Shown in pieces: positions 22,540 to 25,855 of a stretch of 45,702 bases of DNA (position 1 is its first letter; each line of letters opens with the position of its first letter). Source of the stretch: Gemmatimonadota bacterium (GTDB lineage: Bacteria > Gemmatimonadota > Gemmatimonadetes > Longimicrobiales > Gaopeijiaceae); contig JAPPNO010000010.1 of NCBI GenBank assembly GCA_028873845.1, forward strand, positions 51,965-97,666. The letters are read 5' to 3'. A program made the translations under genes and the position numbers. The notes under the pieces are model-generated. The model searched no databases. It saw only the letters and a list, made by a program, of their open reading frames with translations, and was not told where the DNA came from.

Positions 22540-23976
22540 CTACCTCCTCCTTCTTCGCCGCTTCCGCCGCTGCTTGCGACTCAGCCTCTTCTTCCCTCCC
22601 CCACCCTTCCGCATCTTCCCCAGCTCCGGCTCCGACCCAGGCACTTCCGGCCGGCCCGCCTCCGCACCTTCAAGCTCCGACGACACCAACCCCAGGAAAC
22701 TTCGCATTCCCCCGAGGACCCAGCCCAACTCCTCCCACCGGCGGTTCACATCCAACACGAGTTTGGCCAGCACACCCGCCTTGGCCCACCGCTGCCGGTG
22801 AATCCGCAGGAACCTCGCCCTTGGAGGCTCATCCGTCACCCCCAGACCCGCGAAGCGCTTGAAGCTGAGGCGGTCATGAAGCAGAAGCTCCAGATGCTCG
22901 TCCGAAAGATCGTAGATCGCTCCCAACAGGATGGACTTGAACATGACAAGCGCATCGTTGAGGTCCAGCGGGTCGCGGTCCCGGAACAGGTCCTCCCCGC
23001 TCATTCGCGAGGCTTCCAGGGGCGCCCGGAAGAGCTCCCAGGGAACGGCGGCATCGAGCTTGGCCAATGACGGCGTGGTATTGGACGAAGTGTTCAACAG
23101 TCTGTCCAGGTGTTCGTGCGCCTCGGCGATCTCGAGGTCGGCGAAGGAGATCTGCCGGGAATCCCCGGCCGCGTCGCGCAATTGGGCCAGCGACACGACC
23201 GTCCCGCCACCCGCCCATCCGCACACCGGCTCGGTCTCGGGTTCGGACCTGGCCCCGGGCATGAAGACCGCGTCGCGGACCACGGTCACGCGGTGGCCAT
23301 GCGAGAGCAGACCTTCGACGATGCGGGCCACCGTGCCATCCCAGGCGACCCCGGCAACGATGATCTCCAGGGGCCCGTAGTGCGCGTCCTCCACGGCGGC
23401 CAGGAGGGCTTCGCACTCCGAGTGCTCTTCAAAGCCGCCGCCGGGCTTCCTGTGTGCAACCACGGCCCGCCCCCGCGCCGCAGCATGGTATCCCAGGTTC
23501 TCCGCCCGTTCGTCGTCCGCGTTCCGCTCCAGCACCAGGGGATCCGGGGGGCGAATGGCGTCGATCAGCAATGCACGCCCGTGTTCTTCGCCGTCCGGCG
23601 AATGTTCCTCACGGTCCTGGTCGGAGGTTCCGGCAGCGGGGCCGGAGCCGTGCGCGGCAATCCCGGAGTCCGGGGCGCGGGGCCAGTGTTGCGTGTATAC
23701 CAGGAAGGGGCACTGCCGCGCCATCCACTCGACGGCCCGCGTCAACGTGGCGGCCGCCTCGGAGGGGGTCACCTCGATCTGGTCGTTGCCGCCCCCGACG
23801 ACGCGGCACCGGGTACCCGCGTCCAGGAAGCCGCGCTGGGCGTCAACGATCCAGCCGACGCGGACGGGATCGACGCCGGCCCACCGGTCCGAGGGGCGTT
23901 CGCTTGCCGAGTCGGCGCCCGCAGGGGTTCCGGAAATGGGCGTGCTGTCGGTGCGGGAGTCCTCGCTATGGGTCAT
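22540..23976 (-). CDS. Nicotinamidase-fold protein lacking catalytic Cys, fused to IS5 transposase N-domain
   Basis: 478 residues from the ATG at 23976 (a TTG at 24012 is also open). Residues about 35-260 have the isochorismatase/nicotinamidase pattern: VGWIVDAQRGFLD (Asp45), a Lys in VVAHRKPGG, and GVAWDGTVARIVEG where the family has VATDxCV; the catalytic Cys is replaced by Thr, so hydrolase activity is not expected. Residues about 300-410 match the N-terminal DUF772 domain of IS5/IS4-type transposases: LNDALVMFKSILLGAIYDLSDEHLELLLHDRLSFKRFAGLG and HRQRWAKAGVLAKLVLDVNRRWEELG. The DDE catalytic part is absent. The end is a basic tail of Lys and Arg (KKRLSRKQRRKRRRRRR). The frame is intact across all three parts. 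It follows the GreA/B-fusion gene by about 100 bases on the same strand and may be its partner. Function unknown. Confidence 0.75.
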   Translation of the reverse strand: MTHSEDSRTDSTPISGTPAGADSASERPSDRWAGVDPVRVGWIVDAQRGFLDAGTRCRVVGGGNDQIEVTPSEAAATLTRAVEWMARQCPFLVYTQHWPRAPDSGIAAHGSGPAAGTSDQDREEHSPDGEEHGRALLIDAIRPPDPLVLERNADDERAENLGYHAAARGRAVVAHRKPGGGFEEHSECEALLAAVEDAHYGPLEIIVAGVAWDGTVARIVEGLLSHGHRVTVVRDAVFMPGARSEPETEPVCGWAGGGTVVSLAQLRDAAGDSRQISFADLEIAEAHEHLDRLLNTSSNTTPSLAKLDAAVPWELFRAPLEASRMSGEDLFRDRDPLDLNDALVMFKSILLGAIYDLSDEHLELLLHDRLSFKRFAGLGVTDEPPRARFLRIHRQRWAKAGVLAKLVLDVNRRWEELGWVLGGMRSFLGLVSSELEGAEAGRPEVPGSEPELGKMRKGGGGKKRLSRKQRRKRRRRRR

Positions 23977-24078
23977 TTGGGCCAGGATGCGTGTGGGCGG
24001 TGTTCGGGGCAACAGGCATCAAGGTGTCCCCGTCTGTCGGTGTCAAGGCAGGACCGCCTTTAGCCGGAAGCCGATTGA

Positions 24079-25113
24079 TCAGGCGTCCGCAATCAGCACG
24101 ATTCGGATTCGGGAGGGGTCCTGACCCGGGAGCCCGACCTCCCGCTCCTCACCCTCGTGGGCCCCGAGCAGCGCGTAGCCGATCGGAGAGTCGCGCGAGA
24201 CCTCGCCCTTGTTCCAGTCGGGCTCGCAGCCGACCACGACCCGGCGGACGATCTCGCGGGAATCGAAGTCGTAGACATACACCTTGTCGCCGACCTCGAC
24301 GCGGCGCGCGGGAGTCGGGTCCGGCGGATCCGGTGGCCAGCTCAGCGAACCCATCTGGGCACGGACATATCCCAACGCCTGCCTTCGGTCGGTTGCGACG
24401 CCGACTGTCTCCTCCACTTCACGCAGGAAGCGGCGCACAACCTCGCGACCCGTCACCGCGCGGCGCCACGCCGCGCAGGCCTCGGCCGGAAAGCGTTTCC
24501 TGCCGTAATCCCGCCCGGCCTCGCGGAAAGCCTCCCTAGACTTGGCGGCGTGGAACGACAGGTATGTGTCCAGGGTCAGGGCGATGTGCTCTTTCGCCCC
24601 GTCCACGATGTCGAAGCGGGCGAACCGCCGGTTGCGGATGCTGCCCCGCCCGGCAGGGAAATGAAATTGCCAATCCCGTCCGTCGTCCGAAACCGCCAGT
24701 TGGAGGGCCCGGGTCGAGGGATCGTCGAAGGGGTGGGGGTTCGGGGCGCCCGCCGACTCCGGGAGCGCTCCGACCTTGATCAGGATCCGCGGATCGCCGG
24801 GAGGATGGCAAAGTGCGAGGTCGACAGCGTCGGCGGCGGTCCTCAAGTCCGGCGCCACGACGCCCGGGTCCCCGGTGTTCCACCCGAGTTGCTGCAAGAG
24901 GGGGATCAAGATGCCGTCCACGACTTCGTCGCGGGTCGCGAACGTCCCGCGCTCGAAGTCCGCCGCCAGGGCGTGGAGCCGCTCGGCGAGGGACTCGATG
25001 CGCAGGTGTCGGTCGAAGAGGGGCAGGCCGCCGGCCGGGTCGTCCGGGTGGGGTGGCCCTCCGGGAGTGTCTTTCGGCCCGTCTGCATTCACGAAGGAAC
25101 TCCCACGATCCAT
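24079..25113 (-). CDS. HSDR_N-like restriction-type protein fused to GreA/GreB C-terminal domain
   Basis: 344 residues from the ATG at 25113 (a TTG at 25173 would add 20 residues). The N-terminal half resembles the nuclease region of type I restriction R subunits: RDEVVDGILIPLLQQLGWNTGDPGVVAPDL, then AVDLALCHPPGDPRILIKVGAL. The expected D...ExK is degraded: the ILIKVG segment has Lys and Gly where IExK is normal. The C-terminal 75 residues match the FKBP-like domain of transcript cleavage factors GreA/GreB (VEVGDKVYVYDFDSREIVRRVVVG, KGEVSRDSPIGYALLGAHEGEEREVGLPGQ, RIRIVLI), which in Gre factors binds RNA polymerase. A polymerase-binding sensor linked to a nuclease-like module is an attractive but unproven reading. 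It is probably co-transcribed with the chimeric gene downstream. Confidence 0.75.
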   Translation of the reverse strand: MDRGSSFVNADGPKDTPGGPPHPDDPAGGLPLFDRHLRIESLAERLHALAADFERGTFATRDEVVDGILIPLLQQLGWNTGDPGVVAPDLRTAADAVDLALCHPPGDPRILIKVGALPESAGAPNPHPFDDPSTRALQLAVSDDGRDWQFHFPAGRGSIRNRRFARFDIVDGAKEHIALTLDTYLSFHAAKSREAFREAGRDYGRKRFPAEACAAWRRAVTGREVVRRFLREVEETVGVATDRRQALGYVRAQMGSLSWPPDPPDPTPARRVEVGDKVYVYDFDSREIVRRVVVGCEPDWNKGEVSRDSPIGYALLGAHEGEEREVGLPGQDPSRIRIVLIADA

Positions 25114-25169: not shown

Positions 25170-25363
25170 TCAATGCGGGCGCCGATTGTCGCGCAGCGGA
25201 CCCGCCTGCGAGTGCGGGCGGCCGGCAACGGCCGTTCGATGGAGGAGGAAGTCATGCAGATCCTTCGCAAGGCCGTCGGGCGCTTAGGAACCAGACTGGC
25301 CGGACGCTGGCCGCGGAACGCATGGACCGAGTACGCGACACCGGTGACCACCGCCCCATTCAT
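25170..25363 (-). pseudogene. Possible decayed hicB-like antitoxin
   Basis: The stretch starts with an ATG overlapping the end of the hicA relic (ATGA at 25360-25363), the usual hicA-hicB junction. In that frame TALRRIC and ERPLPAARTRRRVRCATIGA resemble the HicB pattern EALRRIREAI...DGLPVPxPRT, but the N-terminal beta strands are not recognisable and the frame runs on past the expected end. I regard it as a badly decayed antitoxin; random similarity cannot be excluded. Confidence 0.3.
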
Positions 25364-25564
25364 CGAATCCCTCCCTTCTTGAGTCCGGCCTGTTTCAGGA
25401 TGCTATTCCACGTTCCGGGTGGCGAGTCATCATTCAGGTTCCCCGGGGATCGTGACTCGTCCTTGTTTCTCAGGGTGCTTGTACTGTCGGTGACTTCCGC
25501 GGGTGCGGACGAGCACCCATCCGTGCTCCGTGACGAGTCGAATTGCTTCCCTCACCTTGGGCAT
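25360..25564 (-). pseudogene. hicA: Frameshifted HicA-type toxin gene
   Basis: From the ATG at 25564 the product reads MPKVREAIRLVTEHGWVLVR, then TRGSHRQYKHPEKQGRVTIPG, the classical HicA (YcfA) double-stranded-RNA-binding fold with catalytic His in GSHRQY. The frame stops after GEPE at 25430, but the next frame continues NDDSPPGTWNSILKQAGLKK, exactly the HicA C-terminus. Removing one T at about 25434 restores a 67-codon gene. GGGGGGAAG lies just before the start. So this is a recent one-base inactivation, or a sequencing error worth checking. Confidence 0.75.
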
Positions 25565-25573
25565 CTTCCCCCC

Positions 25574-25855
25574 CTACGCCGTCCTCTGGTTCTCCGTCGA
25601 CGTCCCGATCCAGATATGCGGTGGCAGTCCGCAGTCACAAAACAGATCCCCATTCTGCCGTACGAAACGCGCCGCCCGGCTCGGCCGCTTGGTCAGCACC
25701 TGGTAGGTATGCCGGTCCACATCGAGCATGACCTCGAACACCGCCCGCAGGAAATCCGCAGGGATGTCACAGTGGAACCGCACGGGGAATCTTCCGCATG
25801 TTGGTGCCCCGGGCGACGACCGGACGCCGTCGCACCGAAACCCACCCCCCCTCAC
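25574..25855 (-). pseudogene. DUF5131 (phage Gp37/Gp68-like) fragment
   Basis: Residues in the middle of this frame match the DUF5131 core: RFHCDIPADFLRAVFEVMLDVDRHTYQVLTKRPSRAARFVRQN, then LPPHIWIGTSTENQRTA, after which the frame stops. The family is normally about 230-300 residues, so both ends are missing. These proteins come from phages and mobile elements. Together with the hicA relic next to it this marks a degraded mobile segment. Confidence 0.65.

Follow-up and report, generated by a model that had tools for sequence, protein, structure and literature searches.

Two lineage-restricted chimeric genes of Gemmatimonadota join predicted inactive enzyme domains to a Gre-type domain and a transposase domain

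RESULTS

Organization of the P2-P1 locus

The window, by which we mean the whole analysed stretch of 45,702 nucleotides, comes from a 4.05-Mb draft genome of a marine Gemmatimonadota bacterium, whose named relatives are genome bins assigned to Gemmatimonadota, Longimicrobiales, and Candidatus Palauibacter. The span from 22540 to 25113 consists of exactly two genes on the minus strand, P2 (gene 2; 25113..24079, 344 amino acids) and P1 (gene 1; 23976..22540, 478 amino acids). ATG start codons were assigned at 25113 for P2 and at 23976 for P1, since these starts are common to the homologues. Both reading frames are intact and lie head to tail, separated by 102 bases, in agreement with the original prediction of two open frames about 100 bases apart.

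The two genes had also been described as lying beside hicA, hicB-like, and DUF5131 relics. A hicA relic (25365-25564, minus strand; Pfam E value of 1.6e-13) is present and carries a frameshift near its end, after which the C-terminal motif resumes in another frame, and a fragment of a DUF5131 protein was found at 25574-25855 (minus strand; Pfam E value of 2.4e-14). In the case of the hicB-like relic, however, no such frame was found beside the hicA relic in the window; the antitoxin relic is of the FitA-like ribbon-helix-helix type (25170-25382; Pfam E value of 3.1e-10) and is located on the plus strand, opposite to P2 and just upstream of it.

P2 combines an HSDR_N-type domain with a Gre C-terminal domain

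The C-terminal part of P2 (residues 269 to 341; 24091..24309, minus strand) matched the Pfam family GreA_GreB (PF01272) with an E value of 7.7e-10, the match beginning only at residue 269, and the same domain was found with Pfam in all eight P2 homologues tested. Across the P2 homologues, the SPI loop known from Gre factors is only partly kept (SPI, SPK, SAI, SAV, and SSF), which counts against the proposed docking on RNA polymerase. P2 thus shares with the Gre family (GreA, GreB, Gfh1, Rnk) the FKBP-like C-terminal domain by which these proteins dock on RNA polymerase. Unlike them, it lacks the N-terminal coiled coil with an acidic tip, and in its place stands, according to the AlphaFold model, an HSDR_N-type domain with an alpha/beta nuclease fold, followed by a helical linker.

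The N-terminal domain of P2 (residues 38 to 200; 24514..25002, minus strand) had no match in Pfam, NCBIfam, or PADLOC. As this domain and the first half of P1 remained below the cut-offs of these collections, homology was established via relatives. For P2, the comparison set was made up of active HSDR_N proteins, several of which also contain DUF4268. Against the profile of these proteins, hhalign yielded an E value of 4.7e-42 with 35% identity over 243 columns. The active proteins show the motif D...E-V-K. In P2 the first aspartate is kept as D98, which is invariant among the P2 members in the alignment, whereas E-x-K is changed to K113-V-G115 (codons near 24777-24769). The catalytic lysine is replaced by glycine in every intact P2 homologue that retains the site, and the catalytic glutamate is mostly lost; in genome G022 a deletion of 37 residues has removed the catalytic site. 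From these residues, the N-terminal domain of P2 is an inactive PD-(D/E)XK nuclease domain of the HSDR_N type that is predicted to be unable to cut. It is homologous to the corresponding domain of HSDR_N proteins (PF04313/PF13588), especially those combining HSDR_N with DUF4268 (relatives of the defence candidate PDC-S11), and of type IIG enzymes such as DrdV, but P2 differs from all of these by the added Gre domain and by having no DUF4268, methylase, or helicase part.

The AlphaFold model of P2 had a pLDDT of 70 overall, with values mostly between 75 and 90 within the domains. Its strongest structural match was the Gre C-terminal domain, both in GreA of PDB entry 9a7t, an integrative model (Z score of 12.2, 1.4 Å, 72 residues), and in the crystal structure of Escherichia coli GreA, 1grj (Z score of 11.4, 2.3 Å, 71 residues). 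Residues 39 to 197 matched the nuclease domain of DrdV (Z score of 9.6, root mean square deviation of 3.5 Å, 128 residues), and a match was also obtained with the nuclease domain of BpuSI (Z score of 8.4, root mean square deviation of 4.3 Å, 142 residues). The sequence, the profile-profile comparison, and the model with its PDB matches agree and confirm the two-part architecture of P2. The restriction-type N-terminal region with a degraded ExK motif and the Gre domain, which was to be visible in a structure prediction, had both been proposed correctly.

P1 combines a nicotinamidase-like domain with part of an IS5 transposase

The first half of P1 (residues 37 to 270; 23167..23868, minus strand) resembles hydrolases of the nicotinamidase/isochorismatase type. 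It scored below the Pfam cut-off (E value of 0.009) but mostly shares 33 to 39% identity with intact nicotinamidase-like genes from members of the genus and the family, including the window genome's own copy. In these comparisons E values went down to 1e-34, and one of the matching genes (L015) is itself recognized by Pfam with an E value of 6.8e-12. According to the alignment, P1 differs from the intact enzymes in that only Asp45 of the catalytic triad is kept, while the lysine is replaced by Arg176 and the cysteine by Thr215, and the metal-binding motif is lost. Among the P1 homologues, three have serine at the cysteine position, and the lysine position is occupied by serine or another residue. 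As the triad lysine and cysteine and the metal motif are lost, P1 is not expected to have nicotinamidase activity. The fold and the Cys-to-Thr exchange were therefore recognized correctly in the original prediction, whereas the idea that the genes sense NAD-related ligands is unsupported, because the catalytic and metal-binding residues of P1 are gone.

The domain fused to this half is an IS5-type transposase N-terminal region (residues 275 to 425; 22702..23154, minus strand), which includes DUF772 (PF05598; residues 343 to 404; Pfam E value of about 3.5e-10). DUF772 was found in P1 of all four genomes, i.e., in the window and its three genus homologues. Alignment of P1 with intact and truncated IS5 transposases covered the full N-terminal region from its Q-x-S-F-A-D start, and the similarity stops where the first catalytic aspartate of the DDE domain would come. 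The DDE catalytic domain is absent from P1 in all four genomes, and in its stead a basic, Arg/Lys-rich tail (residues 455 to 478; 22543..22614, minus strand) is kept in each of them; DUF772 and this tail had likewise been noted beforehand. In contrast to IS5 transposases, P1 shows no sign of being a mobile element and is conserved as a fusion. A structure prediction for P1 from three sequences reached a pLDDT of 44, and a fold search with that model gave noise only. As the model is poor, a DNA-binding role of P1 rests on knowledge of the family and on charge.

Distribution and linkage of P1 and P2

P2 was present in 9 of the 23 genomes of the genus (the window genome, G003, G007, G011, G012, G015, G020, G021, and G022). 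The copy in G007 is frameshifted, and this, together with the deletion in G022, indicates that P2 is dispensable. Outside the genus P2 was found in one coral-derived Palauibacter genome (43 to 45% identity), among 35 genomes of that family. A short-pattern scan of 84,980 species revealed no further P2 fusion elsewhere. Neither phage records nor plasmid records contained a match to P2, matches of P1 in plasmid records were through the transposase domains only, and the viral contigs searched contained no relative of either protein. In G021, which is a single-contig complete chromosome, a fragment of a second P2 copy was observed (L042, 5099-5422) about 4 kb from the intact one.

P1 was detected in 4 of the 23 genomes (the window genome, G003, G011, and G015), all of which also contain P2. 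The probability of this coincidence by chance is about 0.014, calculated as C(9,4)/C(23,4). P1 and P2 are adjacent and on the same strand in three of the four genomes, P2 preceding P1 in the window and P1 preceding P2 in G003 and G011; in G015 the two genes are located on different contigs with other neighbours. Six genomes (G007, G012, G020, G021, G022, and G091) contain P2 without P1. Co-occurrence and adjacency of the two genes are thus not constant. The recurrence of the two domain combinations or of the gene pair in other genomes had been set beforehand as a test on which the prediction could fail; both combinations, and in part the pair, were found to be kept elsewhere. These results show that P1 and P2 are lineage-restricted chimeric genes, both fusions being kept in related species.

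Divergence and selection

P1 and P2 diverge much faster than their flanking genes. The P1 protein of the window is 39 to 43% identical to its homologues, and P2 identities are mostly between 55 and 72%, with 45% for the Palauibacter copy. For the neighbours, identities were 84 to 94% (TetR gene, fatty-acid hydroxylase gene, and core genes of the region) and 79 to 89% (AlbA_2 gene). The dN/dS ratios (NG86) were 0.26 to 0.55 for P2 and 0.47 to 0.84 for P1, and the rate of evolution of P1 is close to the expectation under weak constraint. Drift was simulated from the window copies to the observed divergence and predicted 3 to 8 in-frame stop codons, with none being observed. In the case of P1 (window versus the others) about 7 stops were expected, and zero stops occurred in at most 0.1% of the simulations; for P2 the expectation was 3 to 5. 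Because drift to this divergence would have left stop codons, both genes are probably functional. Between G003 and G011, dS was 0.15 for P1 and 0.70 for P2, a mismatch indicating that the two genes have different histories and were not inherited as one unit.

Genomic neighbourhood

Several of the genes that flank P2 are again found close to it elsewhere in the genus, and the position and orientation of P1 and P2 among them vary. In some relatives the region contains an AlbA_2/HATPase/Fic-like_C protein (an AlbA_2/Schlafen ATPase), and in G021 and G012 an AAA_21 plus DUF3226 pair matching the PADLOC candidate PDC-M38 is located near P2 (L042, 931-2703, and L043, 5921-7399). P1 and P2 themselves matched no PADLOC model, PDC-S11 included. 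The closest active relatives of the P2 N-terminal domain contain DUF4268 and are scored by PADLOC as PDC-S11, a defence candidate; for one of them (L047) the match was shown to be through the DUF4268 part. Given the defence-type neighbours and the PDC-S11 score of the active relatives, it appears reasonable to suppose an involvement in conflicts with mobile DNA. The defence-related function proposed originally is consistent with this neighbourhood, and nothing beyond the neighbourhood speaks for it.

One further gene was considered as the actual partner of P2. A 733-amino-acid protein that by eye is of the GHKL type (HSP90-like ATPase), and for which Pfam gave no match, is located tail to tail with P2 in G011, G020, and G022 (L038, 2697-4898; L041, 2077-4278; L044, 9844-12045) and is conserved at 77 to 91% in nine genomes of the genus. 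It was rejected, as it also occurs in genomes without P2 and is missing from several with P2, including the window genome. The AlbA_2 gene is found genus-wide.

DISCUSSION

A search of the literature found no published account of the architecture of P1 or P2. The explanation that we tentatively prefer, at slightly less than even confidence, is that P2 is a factor that docks on RNA polymerase and carries a nuclease-dead head, that P1 is a domesticated nucleic-acid-binding chimera, and that the two are separately exchanged modules. P2 would dock on RNA polymerase via its Gre C-terminal domain and hold the non-cutting nuclease-fold domain near the secondary channel or DNA. In characterised secondary-channel factors the globular C-terminal domain is responsible for RNA polymerase binding, and the N-terminal part of Rnk does not extend far enough to reach the active centre, yet Rnk competes with Gre and DksA (PMC4598747). 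In a similar way to Rnk and Gfh1, P2 may modulate transcription by competing with or displacing factors of the GreA/DksA type, or it may serve as a DNA-binding tether. By analogy, the most likely property of P2 is RNA polymerase binding, and a sensing of transcription through the predicted docking of the Gre domain is plausible. P1 would have arisen when a nicotinamidase copy, duplicated and inactivated, was joined in frame to the N-terminal part of an IS5 transposase and to a basic tail. Its most likely property is nucleic-acid binding, which would involve the DNA-binding or dimerisation part derived from IS5 together with the tail. Both genes would be swapped as separate modules inside one variable, partly defence-type chromosomal region, where they sometimes come to lie side by side.

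A two-gene defence system formed by P1 and P2, as proposed originally, is possible. In the anti-phage or toxin-antitoxin-like version of this idea, which we consider unlikely, P2 would sense the takeover of RNA polymerase by a phage and P1 would act on nucleic acid. The presence of P2 in every P1 genome, the three adjacent same-strand pairs, and the Schlafen-type ATPase and PDC-M38 genes of the region are in favour of it, as is the PDC-S11 score of the active relatives. However, the absence of any PADLOC match speaks against such a system, and no catalytic effector is visible in either protein. The occurrence of P2 alone in six genomes, the flip in gene order, and the discordant divergences show in addition that the pair is not obligate, so that of the proposed gene pair the adjacency in three genomes stands and its unity is doubtful. 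P1 and P2 look like separately exchanged genes and not like an inseparable two-gene system. A more elaborate version, with P2 as a new kind of immune or regulatory sensor that is carried on RNA polymerase and bears a disarmed nuclease head of the restriction type, and with P1 as its domesticated-transposase partner, the two jointly detecting or blocking transcription of invading DNA, seems quite improbable to us.

Dead enzyme copies commonly serve as regulators, and P2 could accordingly be viewed as a dominant-negative or immunity-like decoy that pairs with active HSDR_N-DUF4268 nucleases or shields transcribed DNA. The N-terminal domain of P2 is clearly derived from that family, but the clear active relatives in the genus occur in G010 and G014, which both lack P2, and among the P2 genomes only G011 gave a weak full-genome match, so that P2 largely occurs where there is no active relative. 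As the Gre domain would also be left unexplained, we regard this possibility as very unlikely. For P1, the alternative is a functionless, decaying gene that arose when an insertion happened to place a duplicated nicotinamidase in frame with an IS5 remnant. Paralogues of nicotinamidase and remnants of IS5 do exist in the same genomes as P1, and the rarity of P1 and its dN/dS of up to 0.84 fit decay as well. On the other hand, four genomes keep this fusion open at 41 to 85% identity, all of them sharing the truncation point and the basic tail, and the roughly 7 stops expected by drift are missing; decay is therefore an improbable explanation.

Under the preferred reading of separate modules, P1 exemplifies, in a bacterium, how a transposase domain can be domesticated through its fusion to a dead metabolic enzyme. 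P1 and P2 are small and expressible and the prediction concerning RNA polymerase is direct, which makes them worth a test at the bench. The P2 fusion points to a physical connection of transcription with DNA recognition of the restriction type, and P2 would, if the docking holds, extend the secondary-channel regulators beyond coiled-coil proteins.
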